Part shown: in pieces, positions 3 to 19,174 of the stretch
Position numbering within the stretch: the first letter of the stretch is position 1
Layout of the letters: every line of letters begins with the position of its first letter
Source of the DNA: a virus
Reading direction: 5' to 3' (one strand)
DNA: 25,026 nucleotides
IMG/VR virus record: IMGVR_UViG_3300017951_000119
Coordinates: 1 to 25,026 of that record
Translations under genes and position numbers: made by a program
Notes under the pieces: model-generated
What the model saw: only the letters and a program-made list of their open reading frames with translations
The model's database searches: none
Told to the model about the DNA's origin: nothing

Positions 3-770
3 CGGGCTGGCGCTGGCAACGTGTGTCCCAACGCGACGTTCGGAGCGCATGGGTGCGCAGCCCCATGCCTCGACACTTCGGGGCATGGTGGAATTGGTAG
101 CTTGACGACCAACAAGGTCCAACTTGCCCGCAAGCGTCGCACCCGTTTCTGGTTTGACCATCGCGAGGACTTCGCTCGCATGGCAACTAAAGAAATCGGG
201 GCGATGGTCCGGAAGGCTGAGCGGCTCCCGGAATTTCAGGGTGTCGCGATTCGACCGAACGGCACCAGCGACCTTCGAGAGCTTGCGTTCTCTTTGATTG
301 ACTCCGTCAACAAAGAATTCCCGGACGCCCCGGTCATGTTCTACGACTACACAAAAATTCCGTGGGTGTTCGAGTCTGGCCCGTGGTTGCGTTCAAATTA
401 TCACTTGACGCTGTCATGGTCCGGGATGATCGACAATGCGCACGACAGTCTGCAAGCGTTGCACCATGGGTGCAATGTCGCAGCGATGCACGAAGCGACA
501 TTTTCAAATCCGTCATTGACGCACGCCACCATCACCACACCCAAGGGAACCGCGAGAACGTTTTCGACCTTTGACGCTGACTCTTACGACTTGCGGTTTC
601 TCGACTGCAATCGACGGCACCCATCGCGCAACCCGGAAGGAGAGGGCCGAGTCGGAATCTTGAAACCCAAGGGTAAAGCTAAGAAATCCCGGTTCCCCGG
701 ATTTGCTGGCAAAGTGTTGGGTCAAGAGTTGATTCTCCAACCGGACCCAAGCGCCAAGCTTAAAGGGTAA
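3..770 (+). CDS. gp88-family phage protein, 5' end outside window
   Basis: The reading frame is open to the window edge (first full codon at position 3). GTG at 21 lies inside the conserved N-terminal motif, so the true start is upstream and 255 residues are visible. The pattern matches my memory of the phage gene-product-88 family: a Cys cluster (CPNA then GCAAPCLDTSGHGG), GIGSLTTNK, an arginine-rich ARKRRTRFWF stretch, the core AIRPNGTSDLREL, and FYDYTKIP. Biochemical function is not established as far as I know. The clustered Cys residues would suit metal binding, which is inference. The lysine-rich C-terminus (KPKGKAKKSRFPGFAGK) is polar. It heads a group of three small plus-strand genes, separated from the next by a GC-rich hairpin. 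Confidence 0.75.
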   Translation, partial: RAGAGNVCPNATFGAHGCAAPCLDTSGHGGIGSLTTNKVQLARKRRTRFWFDHREDFARMATKEIGAMVRKAERLPEFQGVAIRPNGTSDLRELAFSLIDSVNKEFPDAPVMFYDYTKIPWVFESGPWLRSNYHLTLSWSGMIDNAHDSLQALHHGCNVAAMHEATFSNPSLTHATITTPKGTARTFSTFDADSYDLRFLDCNRRHPSRNPEGEGRVGILKPKGKAKKSRFPGFAGKVLGQELILQPDPSAKLKG

Positions 771-1452: not shown

Positions 1453-1481
1453 CGGGGAGCCCTTCGGGGCTCCCCGTTTTT
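1453..1481 (+). terminator. Rho-independent terminator, TTCG tetraloop
   Basis: A perfect 10-bp stem, CGGGGAGCCC (1453-1462) and GGGCTCCCCG (1467-1476), closed by a TTCG tetraloop and followed by TTTTTCTTT. It lies 19 nt after the stop of the Cys-rich gene and ends the left plus-strand operon. Confidence 0.9.
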
Positions 1482-1485
1482 CTTT

Positions 1486-1500
1486 GCTTGACCGTCAAGC
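1486..1500. repeat. 15-bp palindrome GCTTGAC-C-GTCAAGC
   Basis: A perfect inverted repeat of 7-bp arms around a central C. Each arm is the GTCAAGC half-site that recurs in the downstream iteron-like array, so a dimeric DNA-binding protein could read both. It is followed by a diverged array unit (ACAGAATTCG, 1501-1510). Confidence 0.5.
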
Positions 1501-1564
1501 ACAGAATTCGAGCGTGGCAATTTCTGATGACAGGGTATGACAATGTCGGTTAAAAGCGACTTGG

Positions 1565-1728
1565 GCGTCAACAATAAAATTCGGAAACCGGGCGTCAAGA
1601 TAAAAATTCGGCGTCAATCGAAAAATTCGCGGACAAACGGAAATTCCGCGTCAAGCAAAAATTCCGCGTCAAGCAAAAATTTCGCGTCAATACCAAAATT
1701 CGGCGTCAATCCCAAAATTCGCGGTCAA
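1565..1728. repeat. Iteron-like tandem array, 18-19 bp period
   Basis: GCGTCAA (or a variant) begins at 1565, 1592, 1611, 1629 (degenerate GCGGACAA), 1648, 1666, 1684, 1703 and 1721 (GCGGTCAA). Nearly every unit is followed 2-4 nt later by AAAATTCG or a variant. From 1592 the spacing is 18 or 19 bp throughout, slightly under two helical turns, as in protein-bound iterons of plasmid and phage origins. Related single elements lie upstream at 1032-1049, 1172-1191, 1436-1455 and 1492-1510, some inside small genes. An ORF translated through the array (1537-1797) is low-complexity and rejected. Origin, partition or regulatory function is inference. Confidence 0.8.
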
Positions 1729-1765
1729 GCAAAGAAAACGCCCATGCGGCAATCCCCTACCAACA

Positions 1766-2041
1766 TAGGGGAAAACCCCTACTCCGACCGAGTGTAGGGG
1801 AAAACCCCTAGATTAGGGGAAAACCCCTAGAGGTAAACCCCTACCTTCGCCTTATCTTCGCCCCTTTTGTAGGGGGAAACCCCTATCGCGCAGCGCGAAA
1901 ATAGGGGTAAACCCTTAAGGGTAAACCCCTACGCCGGCGCTCGAAAGGTAGGTAAAGACCCGTATCGGCATAGGGGAAAACCCCGACAATCAGGCCCCAA
2001 AAGTAGGGGAAACCCCCTACCCGTATAGGGGAAAACCCTGA
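1766..2041. repeat. Array of 16-bp palindromes TAGGGG-AAAA-CCCCTA
   Basis: Perfect copies of TAGGGGAAAACCCCTA lie at 1766-1781, 1795-1810 and 1814-1829. Variants lie at 1870-1885, 1902-1917, 1916-1931 (sharing two bases with the previous one), 1971-1986, 2004-2019 and 2026-2041, with a half-copy near 1832-1845. Each copy is a 6-bp inverted repeat around a 4-nt A-rich centre, so it could be a dimeric protein site in duplex DNA or a tetraloop hairpin when single-stranded. Spacing is irregular, unlike the preceding iteron-like array. Function is unknown. Confidence 0.85.
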
Positions 2042-2399
2042 TGCCAAAAGCCCATTCTTCACTTTTGCGCAAGTCAAATGTTGTATGGGGGGTACTTTTT
2101 TCTAGAAAAGTTTCTTTTTTTCCAAAAAAGAAACGACACAAATTGCAACTTTAATGTCAACTGTTTTTTCAATACTTAATTGCGGGCTAAGAGCGAGAGG
2201 GGGGGGGTGCCCCATGTGCCTCGCCCAAAAAAATCCCCGCGAGGAGACAACCTCAACGGGGATTCGGATCGTAGGGCTTCGGGCTCGTGCGTCTCGTATT
2301 CGCCCCCTAACGAGCGATTGACCGCTGGGTATGGGGTAGCCTAACCCCGCAGCCAATCGCCCCTTAGAAGCGAAGCCTGAGCCCTATTGGGCCAAATGC
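2042..2399. other. Non-coding stretch at convergent operon ends
   Basis: No convincing gene is seen on either strand. It contains an 11-bp perfect AT-rich inverted repeat, GTTTCTTTTTT (2110-2120) and AAAAAAGAAAC (2124-2134) with a 3-nt loop, which could terminate transcription from either side. A run of nine G lies at 2199-2207, and the minus-strand terminator is listed separately. I looked for a tRNA on the minus strand near 2265-2350 and found no acceptable cloverleaf. Confidence 0.5.
2227..2264 (-). terminator. Rho-independent terminator of the packaging operon
   Basis: Read on the minus strand, AATCCCCG (2264-2257) pairs with CGGGGATT (2239-2232). The inner GAGG/CCTC extends the stem with a small bulge, and a run of T follows (complement of 2227-2233). 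It lies about 135 nt past the stop of the prohead protease gene and would end the long minus-strand transcript. Confidence 0.8.
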
Positions 2400-4442
2400 T
2401 CAGAGGATCTCGTCAACGTAGTTCGTGTCGATGTCGATATCGAGCCTCTCGGCCAGCGAGCGAAGAGCCTTGTCCACCTTGGCCTTGGCGATGCTCTCGT
2501 CTTCGGCGTCGAGGGATCGTGTCAGTGCGTCGATGCGCTCCTCCAGCGAACGCTCGCGACTCTCAATCTTTGCGCCCCCGTCCTCTTGACATTCAGGCCC
2601 GGCTGTGTCCTCAGCCTGAGTACGAGTTTCTTCCGGAGTTGCTTCGCGGCTGTCCTCTTCGTCTTCGTAGGTGCCGTCGGTGGCTTCTTCCTCCGTGAGG
2701 AGTTCGCCGTTTCCGATATCTTCGAGGACTTCTTCCAGAACCTTGTATGCGTTCATGGCGCAGCGGCTGGCTTCGGCAATCTTCTCGGCACGCTTCCGGC
2801 TGACCTTCTTACCGATACGCTCTTCGCCCTCGGCGGCTTCGGCGTCTTCGCGCACTCCCTCGATCCAGCCCGACTTGGTGACCTCGCCCAGCACGCGAGC
2901 AAGCATCGAGAGGTCTTCCTCGCTAAAGGCTTCATCGGCGGGATCCTCGACCGTGGCCGACCCGGCGGGTGCCGGGCTCCAGCTATCCATGGCTTCGAGG
3001 AGTCGTTCGAGCCCTTGGCTGAACGCGTCGTCAGCGGAAGCCTCGACGACCTCTTCGACGACCTCTTCGACCTCGTCCCCCGGGGACTCCCCCCCGGCAC
3101 CCTCCCCCGTCGTATCCTCCCCCCCGGCGTGCTCTGCAATCGAGGCAGCGATATCAATCCCGGCGGAAAGCATCGTAGCTACGCGGTGGGCGTTCTCGGC
3201 CACGTCCATAGCGGCTTCTCCGTCCCCGTCAGCGTGCGCCTTGATGGATTTCCAGAGGTCCATGAGGGGCAGGTTCGCGCCCTTAACGTGCGCTACCAAG
3301 GAGTCGTAGAGTCGATTGAGGTCATGCGAGTCGTCACGCTCTGCCGATGCTTCAACAACCGCCTCCGGCTCTTCCTCAACTTCGGGCTCCTCGACAACCT
3401 CTTCGACCCCTACTTCTTCCTCCTCCTCGACCTCGCCCTCAACGGCGCGAAGCTCGGACAGAAGATCGGCGGCAGCAGCAGCGATGGCCTCGTCCTCGGA
3501 CCCCTCAATCGCGGCTTCGAGGGCACTGGCGTAAAGTGCGACTTCGCCCTCTTCGTTCACCTTGGCAATCGGGAACATCCAACCTTCGTGGCTGTCCTCG
3601 GTATGATCCTCGTCGCGACCCAAGAAGTAGGAAGCGTAGCCCTCCCAGTCCTCCTCGCCGAGAAGCGCGTTCGCATCGTCCTCGGAGAAGCTCCACTCCG
3701 CGCTCGCGTCATAGTTCCCATTCTCGATTGCACCCTTGGCCCAATCGACCGCCTTGTCGTTGAATACGATTGCCACTCTTTCCTCCTGCCTAAGTCCTCT
3801 ATGGTCGAGGACATAAGCCTCGCCTCGCGTGATGTCTCCAACCCGAACCACCTGAGCAAACCGCTCCATCTTGTCGCCGCTAATGAGCCCACGAGCGGTC
3901 GCCTCCATCAGGGCGTCGGGATCGGCGGGGATCGGAACGGCGGAGCACTCCAAGAGTTCGTTCTTCAGAAAGTCGAAGCCGACGAAGTTGCCGTCGTCGT
4001 CCTCGATCTTGTCGTACTCCAGCGGAGTCCAACCAATGGACACTGCACGCATATGCCCGTCAAGATAAAGTTTGTAGACCGTGTCCGCGAAGTCATAGTC
4101 CGCGAACTTGGCCGTCATAACGAGCGAGGAATCCTCACCGTCCTTTACGACCTTCCAGTCCTGCCACGATCCAACGGGGGGCTGCGAGTAGTCATGGGAC
4201 CAAAGCATCACCGGGTTCTTGGAGAAGGACTCCAAGTCCCAGCCATCATTGCGCAGGCGGTTGCCATCGCGCTTAACGCCGTCAGTCGAACAGACAAAGC
4301 GAATGACCCGCTCGTCAGAACCGGCCTTCTCGACCCGCGTGTTCTGACCACGCCTAAGCTCAACGCGCTTTCCCGACTCCAAGTCGCGGACCAAGTTCCC
4401 ACTGGGCGCGTCAAGATTAAAATCAAATCTACTCATCGTCAT
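2400..4442 (-). CDS. HK97-type prohead protease with acidic scaffold-like extension
   Basis: Residues about 45-185 match the U35 prohead protease pattern: RFVCSTDGVKRDGNRL, FSKNPVMLWSHDYSQPPVGSW with candidate catalytic His83, AVSIGWTP with candidate Ser135, and LLECSAVPIPADPDAL. Such proteases mature the capsid by cutting scaffold and capsid N-termini. At 680 residues the protein is about three times the usual protease length. Residues about 190-330 form a second compact domain (GWMFPIAKVNEEGEVALYAS region). The rest is strongly acidic, with Glu-rich runs and predicted helices ending in a coiled-coil-like segment (ERIDALTRSLDAEDESI), as expected for a fused scaffold. The start overlaps the preceding HTH gene by 14 nt. 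A terminator follows; no major capsid gene is present downstream. Confidence 0.85.
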   Translation of the reverse strand: MTMSRFDFNLDAPSGNLVRDLESGKRVELRRGQNTRVEKAGSDERVIRFVCSTDGVKRDGNRLRNDGWDLESFSKNPVMLWSHDYSQPPVGSWQDWKVVKDGEDSSLVMTAKFADYDFADTVYKLYLDGHMRAVSIGWTPLEYDKIEDDDGNFVGFDFLKNELLECSAVPIPADPDALMEATARGLISGDKMERFAQVVRVGDITRGEAYVLDHRGLRQEERVAIVFNDKAVDWAKGAIENGNYDASAEWSFSEDDANALLGEEDWEGYASYFLGRDEDHTEDSHEGWMFPIAKVNEEGEVALYASALEAAIEGSEDEAIAAAAADLLSELRAVEGEVEEEEEVGVEEVVEEPEVEEEPEAVVEASAERDDSHDLNRLYDSLVAHVKGANLPLMDLWKSIKAHADGDGEAAMDVAENAHRVATMLSAGIDIAASIAEHAGGEDTTGEGAGGESPGDEVEEVVEEVVEASADDAFSQGLERLLEAMDSWSPAPAGSATVEDPADEAFSEEDLSMLARVLGEVTKSGWIEGVREDAEAAEGEERIGKKVSRKRAEKIAEASRCAMNAYKVLEEVLEDIGNGELLTEEEATDGTYEDEEDSREATPEETRTQAEDTAGPECQEDGGAKIESRERSLEERIDALTRSLDAEDESIAKAKVDKALRSLAERLDIDIDTNYVDEIL

Positions 4443-4956
4443 CCTCTGCGTTTAGGGTTGATGGCTCGTGGTCGATAGTCACAGCGGCGTCAAGCATAGA
4501 GGCGAGTTCGACAAAACTGACGTTCCCACTATGCTCCGTTTTCGCTGGCGCGTCGAGGCCAAGCAACTTCGCGCGACGCTCCATCAATCCCAACGCTGCC
4601 CGGATAGATGCAGGATCGCCCTCGGCTGCGTTCTCGTAAAGACCGCGCCACATCCCATCCAATCGTTGCAACTCCATGCGTCGAAGGTCATCCGCCTTCT
4701 CGTGCTCGATTGCGGCGAGGTCGGCCATCGCACCAGCGACATCCGTGTATGCCGTCTTGTGCGAAACGCCACACTCCTCGCCAATCTGCCGATAGGTGTA
4801 GCCCGCCTTGCGCAGATCCAACGCTCGAAGCCTGCGCTGCTGGATCAACTCCGGCCTCCGAACCATCCCAGTCGGGTAATTCTTGTGATACGGGTCTTGG
4901 CTCACCGGAACACCGGCAACCAAACGAACCGGCTCACGCTCATTCTCGTCTGCCAT
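4429..4956 (-). CDS. HTH protein, possible small terminase subunit
   Basis: One hundred seventy-five residues. At about residues 42-75 (RALDLRKAGYTYRQIGEE, then CGVSHKTAYTDVAGAMADL) there is a clear helix-turn-helix of the kind found in small terminase subunits and transposase-like regulators. A helical segment follows (ELQRLDGMWRGLYENAAEGD), then LGLMERRAKLLGLDAPAK, a motif common in phage packaging-associated HTH proteins. The likely role is recognising the packaging site and handing DNA to the large terminase. The unusual point is position: it lies after the portal, not before the terminase. It overlaps the protease gene by 14 nt. A DNA-binding regulator of late genes is the alternative. 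Confidence 0.65.
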   Translation of the reverse strand: MADENEREPVRLVAGVPVSQDPYHKNYPTGMVRRPELIQQRRLRALDLRKAGYTYRQIGEECGVSHKTAYTDVAGAMADLAAIEHEKADDLRRMELQRLDGMWRGLYENAAEGDPASIRAALGLMERRAKLLGLDAPAKTEHSGNVSFVELASMLDAAVTIDHEPSTLNAEDDDE

Positions 4957-12856: not shown

Positions 12857-13438
12857 TCAATTCTCGTGGGAACGAAGCGCCATAACTTTTTCCGGTGCCT
12901 CGGTAATACTTACATTATTCCCCTCCATTCCCTTCCCTTCCTTTCCATTCCCTTCCTTTCCCTTCCCTTCCCTTCCCCGTGCAAGAACGGGCCGTGCATG
13001 ACCCATGCTTGAATCATTCATGGAATCATCATCGATTTCATTGATCCTTGTCTGGGCAGGGATGCAGGACTCTGTGATGTTTACACCCTTGCCGGAAGAA
13101 CCGGGCAATGACGAGTCAACCTCTTTGTGGTGGGGCCTCTGATGCTCTAGGAAGCCCGGAATCTCGATAAGGTGCTTACCGCCACACGAGTACCTGACGA
13201 GGAAGCCGTCGGGGTGCTGGCAGAGGTCGCTGAGCATCTGCGACACCGTGACTGCGGTGATCTCTTCGTCGTAAGGAAAGCAAGCGACCTTGATTCGACG
13301 AGGCCGATCCAGAAGTCTGCCCCTGCGGTCGGCAAGGGTCCACAGGCCGATGAACAGCAACCTGTGCGCCGCTGAAAGTTCCGCAAGCCCTTCGTGCATG
13401 AAGAACTCTGGCTTGATTGTTCTAATCCTTTGCGCCAC
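12857..13438 (-). CDS. Phage replication initiator-like protein with GKEG repeat
   Basis: One hundred ninety-three residues, GTG start at 13438 behind GAGGAGG (7-nt spacing). Residues 1-100 show the winged-helix pattern of phage replisome organisers/O-like proteins: RIRTIKPEFFMHEGLAELS, RLLFIGLWTLADRRGRLLD, RPRRIKVACFPYD and LIEIPGFLEHQRPHHKEVDS. These bind the origin and recruit the helicase, which here is encoded next. After a variable linker the C-terminal part is a low-complexity repeat (GREGKGKEGNGKEGKG) encoded by a purine pentanucleotide tract, then 20 closing residues. The gene starts inside the end of the preceding gene by 17 nt. Confidence 0.8.
   Translation of the reverse strand: MAQRIRTIKPEFFMHEGLAELSAAHRLLFIGLWTLADRRGRLLDRPRRIKVACFPYDEEITAVTVSQMLSDLCQHPDGFLVRYSCGGKHLIEIPGFLEHQRPHHKEVDSSLPGSSGKGVNITESCIPAQTRINEIDDDSMNDSSMGHARPVLARGREGKGKEGNGKEGKGMEGNNVSITEAPEKVMALRSHEN
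12919..12978 (-). repeat. GGGAA/GGAAA microsatellite with G-quadruplex motif
   Basis: About 60 nt that are nearly all purine on the minus (coding) strand, built from GGGAA- and GGAAA-like units. At 12978-12960 four G-runs (GGGG, GGG, GGG, GGG) are separated by AA, a canonical G-quadruplex pattern. It lies inside the replication initiator gene and encodes the Gly/Lys/Glu repeat. Five-base units mean any slippage changes the reading frame of the last ~45 codons. Confidence 0.8.
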
Positions 13439-16075: not shown

Positions 16076-16459
16076 ATGGGCACAATGAACACAGCGATGA
16101 TCCTTGGCCGCTTGGGCCGCGACCCCGAAACCCGTTACACGAACGGAGGCAAGCAGGTCTGCAATTTCAGCGTGGCGACCGACCGCAAGTCGGGCGGGGA
16201 AAGCGTCACTGACTGGCATAACGTGACTTGCTGGGACAAGACCGCCGACATTGCCGCCAAGTTCCTGCGCAAAGGATCCGAAGTAATGGTGCAGGGGGAG
16301 ATTCGCTACAGCACCTACAAGGCGAAAGACGGCACTGAGAAGAACAAGACCGAGATCAACTGCACGAGGATCGTACTTGTAGGAAAGAAGGACTCTAACG
16401 GGTCCAGCGGAGGTGGCGGGTTTGGGGGATCGGAAACAAAGGCAGAAATGCCCTTCTGA
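16076..16459 (+). CDS. ssb: Single-stranded DNA-binding protein
   Basis: Coats single-stranded DNA at forks and during recombination; 127 residues. One OB fold with the usual bacterial signatures: MNTAMILGRLGRDPETRYTN, VCNFSVATDR, DWHNVTCWDKTADIAAKFL, KGSEVMVQGEIRYSTYK. A short Gly/Ser linker leads to the C-terminal tip ETKAEMPF. This keeps the final Pro-Phe but has only a Glu before it instead of the usual DDxPF, so host partner binding may be weaker. The linker is shorter than in host SSB. Starts 1 nt after the previous stop. Confidence 0.93.
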   Translation: MGTMNTAMILGRLGRDPETRYTNGGKQVCNFSVATDRKSGGESVTDWHNVTCWDKTADIAAKFLRKGSEVMVQGEIRYSTYKAKDGTEKNKTEINCTRIVLVGKKDSNGSSGGGGFGGSETKAEMPF

Positions 16460-17250: not shown

Positions 17251-17685
17251 ATGGGCGAAGCGCAGGGGAGAAAGATCTGTAGCTTCACGGTGCAGGGAAA
17301 ACCTCAGCCGCAGGGATCGCATCGCGCCTTCATGCCGAAGGGGGCTAGGTTCCCGGTGGTCACCGACTCCAATCGAAACCTGAAGCAATGGAGGGACATC
17401 ACGTCATTGGTCGCTCAGAGTCACGCTCTTGACCCTCTATGTGATGGTCCCGTTCTCTTGGTCATCGACTTCTATTTCCAGCGACCCAAAAGCCTTCCGA
17501 AGAAGGTTGAGCACCACCTTAAGAAGCCCGATCTAAGCAAGCTAATCCGGTCTATTGAGGACTCCCTGACAAACATTATTTGGTGCGACGATTCGCAGGT
17601 TGTCGAAGTCAGGGCGACTAAATCATACGGCACTCCAAGGGCTGAAGTCGCCGTTTTTGAATTGAGTAAGGAGAAATCGCAATGA
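17251..17685 (+). CDS. rusA: RusA-type Holliday junction resolvase
   Basis: Cuts Holliday junctions made during phage recombination; 144 residues, typical length. Signatures: an N-terminal strand FTVQGKPQPQGSHRAF, central VLLVIDFYFQRPKSLP, then KPDLSKLIRSIEDSLTNIIW and CDDSQVVEVRATKSY, which hold the conserved aspartates and the lysine of the RusA active site. ATG directly follows the previous TAG; GGGGAAG in the end of that gene serves as ribosome site. It completes the annealing-nuclease-SSB-resolvase set. Confidence 0.9.
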   Translation: MGEAQGRKICSFTVQGKPQPQGSHRAFMPKGARFPVVTDSNRNLKQWRDITSLVAQSHALDPLCDGPVLLVIDFYFQRPKSLPKKVEHHLKKPDLSKLIRSIEDSLTNIIWCDDSQVVEVRATKSYGTPRAEVAVFELSKEKSQ

Positions 17686-17885
17686 GGACACAGTTGGACA
17701 AGAGGCAGAACATTAGGCTCGATCAAGAGCTTCTTTCGGTTGTTTCCAAAATCGCAGAGGAAGAAGACCGAACGGTTAGTGCGACGCTTCGGGTTCTAGT
17801 GAAGGAGGCTCTCGCGAAGCGAGGAAAGGCTGTTAATTCCGGTAAAGGCAAGCTGGCCTCCATCCGTCCTTCCACAAGAGTTTGA
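17682..17885 (+). CDS. Ribbon-helix-helix protein
   Basis: Sixty-seven residues, coupled to rusA by ATGA. The pattern NIRLDQELLSVVSKIAEEED, then RTVSATLRVLVKEALAKRG, is a ribbon-helix-helix fold: a short strand, two helices and a Thr-containing turn. Such proteins bind DNA as dimers and often repress their own operon or act as antitoxins. Its last 53 nt overlap, tail to tail, the metallopeptidase gene on the opposite strand. Last gene of the plus-strand operon. Confidence 0.7.
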   Translation: MRTQLDKRQNIRLDQELLSVVSKIAEEEDRTVSATLRVLVKEALAKRGKAVNSGKGKLASIRPSTRV

Positions 17886-18147
17886 AGAGGGCTCTTTCGA
17901 TGTGGTAGACCCTCTTCTCCGACATCTCAGGGGCTGCAGCGTGCAGCAACTCGTGAAGATATGTACTCGCGAGTTGCTGTGCGCTTTTTTTTCGCTGCAA
18001 GAAAATTATCTTGTGATGAACGTCGGTGTAGCCGACTACGTTGTCGCCTACCGGCTTCGCTGAACTGCCGTATGTTGCTCGAATCGCATCGTCGATGTCG
18101 TCAACAACATAAACCGCCCACGAAGATTTTCCGACTCTGATCCTCAT
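17833..18147 (-). CDS. HExxH zinc metallopeptidase-like protein
   Basis: One hundred four residues. LASTYLHELLHAAAPEMSE has the HELLH zinc motif (H-E-x-x-H) with downstream acidic candidates for the third ligand (E in PEMSE or YHIERAL). A strand VHHKIIFLQ precedes it, as in ImmA/IrrE- and SprT-like phage proteins, ending in a helix with LLWKDGW. ImmA-like peptidases cleave repressors; that is one possible role, unproven. It is coupled to the upstream ribbon-helix-helix gene by ATGA at 18144-18147, which makes a repressor-peptidase pairing worth considering. Its 3' end overlaps the converging plus-strand gene by 53 nt. Confidence 0.65.
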   Translation of the reverse strand: MRIRVGKSSWAVYVVDDIDDAIRATYGSSAKPVGDNVVGYTDVHHKIIFLQRKKSAQQLASTYLHELLHAAAPEMSEKRVYHIERALFKLLWKDGWRPACLYRN

Positions 18148-18407
18148 CCATTTTGCGCCTGATACATCATCAAGATTTGCCTAAGAACCTTGCTTCTCGA
18201 ACAATTCCATTCGGATGCCAGACGTTCGATCATTAGGTCAAGCTCTTTTGTTAGGGTGAAGGAACAAGTTGAGGTCACCCCGCGCTCTCTTCGCGCACTG
18301 TACCGCTTAGGACCGCCTTTAAGGTTCTCCGCAGAGCGCGGCCCGACGTTCCGATCAACTACTCCGTCGTCTAAAAAATCCTGCCTACCGTTCAGCCTAG
18401 AGGCCAT
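18144..18407 (-). CDS. Ribbon-helix-helix-type DNA-binding protein
   Basis: Eighty-seven residues from ATG 18407, with GGAG 8 nt upstream; a start at 18482 would overlap the phosphoesterase gene far more. The first 45 residues are polar and basic (PRSAENLKGGPKRYSARRER). The C-terminus is a ribbon-helix-helix pattern: strand STCSFTLTKELDLMIERLAS, then EWNCSRSKVLRQILMMYQ. It overlaps the phosphoesterase by 16 nt and the metallopeptidase by ATGA. It could be a repressor of this operon. Confidence 0.62.
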   Translation of the reverse strand: MASRLNGRQDFLDDGVVDRNVGPRSAENLKGGPKRYSARRERGVTSTCSFTLTKELDLMIERLASEWNCSRSKVLRQILMMYQAQNG

Positions 18408-19174
18408 GACAAAGTCTCCACATCGACAATCGGGTCGGTCCCGTGTTTGTCGAACTTGATCAAGGGGGATCCAAGCGGGCATGGCGCTACAATCATTTCC
18501 CGAATGTAGTCGGACCTGCCAAGGTAACTGCCTGTCCTAATCTCAAGACGAGGGCGAAGAACTTCGTTATCTTCCTCATCTACACCAATTGACCACAGGG
18601 TTTTGAATCCGAAGTAGTGGTTGTGCCCAAGTGCAGCGAATTGAGCCTTGGGGAACAAACTGAAACACCGCTCAACTTCGGACCAAGGGTTCACGCCAGC
18701 CCGCTTGCCGTGCTGGATTACGCCCCAGTATTCTTCCCCGCTCGATCCAACCTTGACGCGCACTAATCCTCCAATGCCCCAGTACGGGACATTGCCGGGA
18801 AGAACGTGTGCGATGATTTGGCAAAGATCCAAAAGCCCCTCTCGCCTAGTTCTGGCGTCGTGGTTCCCCCGCGTTACGCCCGCAATCAAACCCTTCTCGG
18901 CCAATGGAACTAAGCAATCAATTGCATCGATCACTTGCTCTGTCGGCCAACTGGATTGAGTAAGCAACTTCTCGCCGGGCGACGAGCCGCTAACGATTGC
19001 GTTTTCTAGAATATCGCCATTGAGGACTAGGCAAATCTTATTTTCCAAGCAGTAGTCGAGGGTGTATTGCCACTGCTCTGCGGCGTGCTCTTCGGCTCCA
19101 ATGTGAATATCGGAAGCGATGCACAGGAGTCCATTACTCCTGAGTTGAATTGTCGGAATCTGCAACGGGACCAC
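18392..19174 (-). CDS. Calcineurin-like metallophosphoesterase
   Basis: Two hundred sixty residues with the complete two-metal motif set: SDIHIG (Asp22, His24), LNGD (Asp54), TRGNHDARTR (Asn104, His105), QHGKR (His155) and LGHNHYFG (His184, His186). The family hydrolyses phosphodiesters or phosphomonoesters; phage members may act on DNA or nucleotides, but the substrate cannot be read here. GTG 19174 gives a 41-nt overlap with the preceding gene; an internal TTG (at residue 5) is an alternative start. It sits downstream of lysis-type genes, an odd place for a nucleic-acid enzyme. Confidence 0.88.
   Translation of the reverse strand: MVPLQIPTIQLRSNGLLCIASDIHIGAEEHAAEQWQYTLDYCLENKICLVLNGDILENAIVSGSSPGEKLLTQSSWPTEQVIDAIDCLVPLAEKGLIAGVTRGNHDARTRREGLLDLCQIIAHVLPGNVPYWGIGGLVRVKVGSSGEEYWGVIQHGKRAGVNPWSEVERCFSLFPKAQFAALGHNHYFGFKTLWSIGVDEEDNEVLRPRLEIRTGSYLGRSDYIREMIVAPCPLGSPLIKFDKHGTDPIVDVETLSWPLG

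Follow-up and report, generated by a model that had tools for sequence, protein, structure and literature searches.

A one-stranded cluster of ten 16-bp palindromes in a tailed phage record as a possible part of a replication origin

What role could be played by a dense cluster of short palindromes that lies between two convergent sets of phage genes? We addressed this question in IMG/VR virus record IMGVR_UViG_3300017951_000119, the full 25,026 bp of which are referred to here as the window. It covers a fragment of the genome of a tailed phage, with genes for portal, TerL, prohead protease, primase-helicase, Erf, exonuclease and RusA proteins, together with an SSB (16076-16459) that was assigned by reading its sequence only. 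The phage also encodes an RRM RNA-binding protein (PF00076; 9379-9657), and the window contains no tRNA genes. No relatives were recovered by a TerL search of viral_contigs or by a search with the pattern of a neighbouring repeat array (array 1), blastn against phages returned no matches, and portal and GP88 searches yielded distant loci only, so that no close relative was found in which the palindrome cluster (array 2) could be followed.

Array 2 comprises ten copies of a 16-bp site, TAGGGG-NAAA-CCCCTA, starting at 1766, 1795, 1814, 1828, 1870, 1902, 1916, 1971, 2004 and 2026, each with 0-2 mismatches to this consensus and all on the + strand. An earlier note on this DNA had reported at least nine near-perfect palindromes, which is confirmed by our search of the whole record for TAGGGGAAAACCCCTA-like sites with up to three mismatches. 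This search found no site outside 1766-2041, and 100 dinucleotide shuffles gave a mean of 0.09 sites and a maximum of one. A further, more degenerate copy (TAGGTAAAGACCCGTA) can be seen at about 1949. The centre-to-centre distances are irregular (29, 19, 14, 42, 32, 14, 55, 33 and 22 bp), two pairs of copies overlap by 2 bp, the spacers (3 to 39 bp) share no common sequence, and helical phasing of the copies was not significant (Rayleigh P = 0.16). Information content per position is approximately 1.4 bits in the arms and 1.2 in the loop, compared with 0.29 in the flanks. Since flanks and spacers are unrelated, array 2 is not explained by the decay of some longer unit that was duplicated in tandem. 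The argument that irregular spacing speaks against simple slippage also held up, as conserved units embedded in unrelated spacers support selection on the 16-bp site itself.

All ten loops carry an A-tract (NAAA or AAAC) on the + strand, a feature that the earlier note had missed and which, if the copies are independent, has a two-sided sign probability of 0.002. A site that required only a symmetric spacer would not need its A-tract to be fixed on one strand. Array 2 is, in our judgement, quite probably an array of target sites to which a sequence-specific DNA-binding protein attaches, which is a broader claim than any of the particular roles considered below.

It had also been proposed that variants often change both arms in ways that keep symmetry, and that pairing or dimer binding is selected. 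We found arm substitutions in five of the ten copies (1828, 1902, 1916, 1971 and 2026), giving the arm pairs TAGAGG/CCCCTA, TAGGGG/CCCTTA, TAAGGG/CCCCTA, TAGGGG/CCCCGA and TAGGGG/CCCTGA; every substitution is confined to one arm and breaks or weakens its pair. Watson-Crick pairs are formed at 54 of the 60 positions across the arms, versus 54.4 of 60 when right arms are shuffled among copies (P = 1.0), and compensatory evolution in array 2 is rejected on this basis. The example that had been given for it, TAAGGG beside CCCTTA, joins the left arm of copy 1916 to the right arm of copy 1902, which are neighbours with a two-base overlap (TTAA junction). Given zero compensatory changes and a position that, judging from the terminator-like hairpins, is outside both transcription units, selection on pairing finds no support, while dimer binding is still plausible. 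These results bear directly on whether the palindromes act as hairpins at the level of RNA or single-stranded DNA, for example as terminators, an RNA sponge or priming hairpins. Each perfect copy could fold into a 6-bp stem capped by a 4-nt loop (approximately -5 kcal/mol as DNA), folding of the region is stronger than that of shuffled sequences (z of about -5 to -6), and the loops are one-sided. However, apart from the missing compensatory changes, variants 1916 and 2026 lose about half of their stem energy, the copies are without T runs and lie beyond the terminators of both operons, and an Rfam search returned zero matches, which leaves such hairpins quite improbable.

The genetic context of array 2 is a 966-bp gap (1434-2399) that separates convergent transcription units and is the largest non-coding gap of the record. 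Each of the two units ends in a terminator-like hairpin and T run before the arrays are reached (Table 1). The scan that located these sites found four in total versus 3.3 in shuffles, and the assignment of the two border hairpins as terminators is supported by their position and stem quality, not by their number. There was no excess of promoters in 700-2500 (one found versus 1.3 expected). Because array 2 lies between terminator-like hairpins without such an excess, it likely functions at the level of DNA and not of RNA.

Array 2 is directly adjoined on its upstream side by array 1, a set of GCGTCAANNNAAAAATTCG repeats that are all on the + strand. Stray copies of this repeat extend upstream to 1032, inside two small + strand genes, and two of them are at or near gene starts (1028 and 1174). 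Protein-coding repeats are an unlikely explanation for array 1, as its 18- and 19-bp steps break the reading frame. In its 18-19-bp direct repeats of one orientation, array 1 is similar to plasmid and phage iterons of the P1, F and R6K type, from which it differs by having no adjoining RepA-type initiator. Iteron arrays are a known kind of element; the double array observed here is unusual. Downstream of array 2, the record reaches its highest A+T content over any 100 bp.

Table 1. Location of the arrays, neighbouring signals and selected genes. Positions refer to the window unless another locus is named.
Feature	Position	Strand	Remarks
Array 2 (TAGGGG-NAAA-CCCCTA)	1766-2041	+	Ten copies; pattern search and shuffles
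Array 1, direct repeats GCGTCAANNNAAAAATTCG	1494-1741	+	18-19 bp pitch in dense part (about 1594-1741); iteron-like
Perfect 17-bp inverted repeat TTTTCTTTGCTTGACCG / CGGTCAAGCAAAGAAAA	1478-1494 and 1722-1738		Brackets array 1 exactly
A+T-rich tract	2093-2192		28% GC (23% over 2096-2155); candidate unwinding element
Terminator-like hairpin and T run	1453-1476	+	Ends + strand operon before the arrays
Terminator-like hairpin and T run	2233-2248	-	Ends - strand (prohead protease) transcription unit before the arrays
GP88 family gene (PF17338, phrog_1617)	3-770	+	5' end lost at record start
Replication initiation protein gene	12857-13438	-	10.8 kb from array 2; rival origin
TTATNCACA clusters upstream of GP88	L132 8930-9200; L149 4912; L155 8807; L165 8771; L167 4501; L320 17896		

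As the likeliest of the roles considered, we tentatively read array 2 as a DNA-level binding array that forms part of a phage replication origin. This reading draws on the ten conserved sites in unrelated spacers, which constitute the sole such cluster in the record, on the one-stranded A-tracts, as in the lambda O iterons, and on the iteron-like array 1 and A+T-richest 100 bp that adjoin array 2. It also draws on two observations from other phages that are described below, namely clusters of the same core inside initiator genes or beside primase genes, and TTATNCACA clusters upstream of GP88. In the order of events that we infer, a dimeric initiator (or accessory protein) would bind each TAGGGG-NAAA-CCCCTA site, array 1 would provide a second set of iterons for a second protein or domain, and the assembled complex would open the adjoining A+T-rich tract.

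The lambda O iterons are 19-bp imperfect inverted repeats, such as ATCCCTCAAAACGAGGGA, located beside an A+T-rich tract (PMC7466680). A lambda-type origin and the array region of the window have in common several imperfect inverted repeats (arms rich in G/C, an A-tract at the centre), the single orientation of these repeats, and an adjoining A+T-rich tract (PMC7466680). They differ in that the 4-6 lambda-type sites of 18-19 bp are found inside the initiator gene, whereas the ten 16-bp sites of the window occupy an intergenic gap between convergent genes and are adjoined by a second, unrelated direct-repeat array. With two features of lambda-type origins present (oriented A-tract repeats and an adjoining A+T tract) and one absent (location within the initiator gene), the array region may work like a lambda-type origin without being classed as one. 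Doubt is cast on the origin reading by the replication initiation protein gene, which is distant from array 2 (Table 1) and has its own 15-bp repeats (12917-12976, encoding a GKEGN-type low-complexity stretch); the origin may be there. A second doubt arises from DnaA boxes (TTATNCACA), of which there are none in 1430-2400 at up to one mismatch, and a DnaA-dependent origin in the array region was rejected on this feature.

The earlier note had suggested looking for clustered copies of the site in other phages, and the same core does occur there in clusters. Exact-pattern scans of 2.9 million viral contigs for GGGG-N4-CCCC, plus whole-record counts, showed that sites, where clustered, mostly form one cluster per genome; in G012 they are spread over 2.4 kb. 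The GGGGAAAACCCC clusters of L300 and L304 are found inside replication-initiator genes; they resemble array 2 in their core palindrome and single repeat orientation, and differ in being coding (GENP peptide repeats) and in their arms outside the core. Judged by sequence, L297 looks like a member of the same family as these initiator-gene loci. Another cluster lies inside a 520-aa gene without a family match (L303), and that of L315 adjoins a primase/helicase gene. Three copies in L298/L313 are located just upstream of terS, between terS and a primase gene, and the cluster of L175/L176 immediately precedes, on the upstream side, a candidate small-terminase gene followed by terL. At eight loci, the A+T-richest DNA was unusually near core clusters relative to all positions (P = 0.017), but no closer than expected relative to non-coding positions only (P = 0.37), which weakens the origin reading.

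The clusters near terminase genes (L176; L298/L313) are a further reason for doubt, as they also fit a role in packaging, in which the palindromes would be recognized by the small terminase or by a DNA-bending protein at a pac/cos-type site where packaging starts or ends. The head gene module that borders array 2 is likewise compatible with such a role. We nevertheless consider a packaging site unlikely: array 2 is positioned at the 3' end of the protease gene and not at the terS of the window (4429-4956), such clusters occur within replication-initiator genes in other phages, and an adjoining iteron array with an A+T-rich tract is not expected of a pac site.

One further phage, G001 (L085/L310), carries a GGGG-N4-CCCC array beside its GP88 gene. 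This array is similar to array 2 in its core, its CCCCTA arms, an A/T-tract that is mostly on one strand, the adjoining GP88 gene, and its proximity to the A+T-richest 100 bp of its 20-kb stretch. It differs in its extent of over 1.3 kb, its larger units and its extra GCGA-type hairpins, and the G001 phage is only distantly related to that of the window (TerL 25% identity). At L310 1450-3000, next to GP88, GGGGTTTTCCCC palindromes extend over more than 1.3 kb together with GCGA-type hairpins and CCGACC motifs. The CCGACC motif is common to the arrays of the window, G001 and L176, which is suggestive, with insufficient counts in two of these arrays.

Single copies of the palindrome point to a different kind of use. 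In other viral contigs, a single 16-mer abuts a TTGAC -35 hexamer at 13 of 124 sites, where about one would be expected, and seven of these 13 have a full promoter-like match. Given this excess, some protein probably reads the 16-bp palindrome at promoters in other phages. Array 2 could similarly consist of operators for a dimeric transcription regulator of the phage or its host, or act as a decoy array that titrates it. We think this rather unlikely, because the array region shows no promoter excess and is flanked by facing terminators, an operator would need far fewer than ten sites, and there is no demonstrated regulator gene common to those contigs and the window. A literature search found no phage or bacterial regulatory site that matches the palindrome. 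Single ATAGGGGNAAACCCCTAT palindromes were observed in L010, L011, L027, L033, L040, L045, L066, L069, L078, L089, L096 and L102, where they often abut a TTGAC -35 and adjoin a palindromic promoter element, AAATTATANNATATAATTT. Several of them lie beside a conserved small HTH-like gene. These single sites probably serve as an operator for a regulator that is as yet undescribed.

Dimer-type sites that are clustered and share one orientation, within putatively untranscribed DNA, would also suit a centromere-like (parS-type) array for plasmid-style upkeep of a prophage or pseudolysogen, and two ribbon-helix-helix proteins are encoded in the window (17682-17885 and 18144-18482). No ParA/ParB family member was present among the scanned part of the window proteins, although the record is incomplete, and we regard this role as improbable.

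The earlier note had named, as a refuting outcome, a wide presence of the same array in unrelated host intergenic regions, and host genomes were scanned for it. Many superficially similar GGGG...CCCC palindromes exist in host genomes, which could potentially point to REP/MITE-like mobile palindromes that spread from the host as dispersed TAGGGGNAAACCCCTA copies. Among the matches listed, however, most host copies belong to another REP-like element (GTAGGGGC...GCCCCTGTG), whose loops and flanks differ, and the phage copies form one cluster with a conserved loop and none elsewhere in the record, making a mobile origin very improbable. A recurring palindrome pair of REP-like type (GGCACAGGGGCCTGCCCCTAC...GTAGGGGCAACCCCCTGTGGT) was noticed in many bacterial phyla (L179-L296).

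Several known classes of repeat were excluded by individual features. Stoperators of the cluster A mycobacteriophage type are asymmetric sites spread over the genome (PMC9283540), whereas array 2 sites are palindromic and all fall within one 276-bp cluster. REP/BIME elements were excluded by this single cluster and by the differing loop and flanks of the REP among the listed host matches, a CRISPR array by the irregular spacing (14-55 bp), and an intrinsic terminator array by the presence of zero terminator-like sites (hairpin then T run) within array 2.

At 17 non-redundant loci, GP88 genes lie close to the most repetitive non-coding stretch more often than random positions do (Fisher P = 0.012), but not more often than other non-coding DNA does (P = 0.23), and the origin reading is weakened here as well. 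DnaA-box-like TTATNCACA clusters are found 0.6-2 kb upstream of GP88 in three sequence groups (L132; L149/L155/L165/L167; L320), and are probable DnaA-type phage origins. The arrays of the window are downstream of GP88, whereas those of most relatives are upstream, which adds to the doubt; the GP88 gene of the window is cut by the record start, and its upstream region is outside the record. Taken as a pattern, these neighbourhoods fit an origin near GP88 without being proof of one. Several autographivirus records have GP88 among the early genes, close to the end of the genome or adjoining the terminase gene, and this early-gene position could be an alternative cause of the pattern.

The GP88 family has invariant C2, C12 and C16 residues, which hint at a metal or Fe-S site, and the motifs RLNGTSD and FYDYTK. 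A structure model built from 13 sequences was mediocre (mean pLDDT 67.8) and gave no PDB matches at E < 0.001, so GP88 cannot be called an initiator. No paper on the function of GP88 (PF17338) was found in a literature search. It is a doubtful proposal that GP88 marks a replication or genome-maintenance locus with a cis array of short palindromes or DnaA-like boxes, of which the window and G001 would carry the TAGGGG-NAAA-CCCCTA version, read by an undescribed protein.

A link that ties GP88 genes to the principal repeat-rich non-coding region in phage genomes is so far only suggestive. If array 2 is part of an origin, it would provide a concrete sequence test for where replication starts in this phage and its relatives, and clustered GGGG-A-tract-CCCC palindromes could be used to flag replication origins in uncultured phages.
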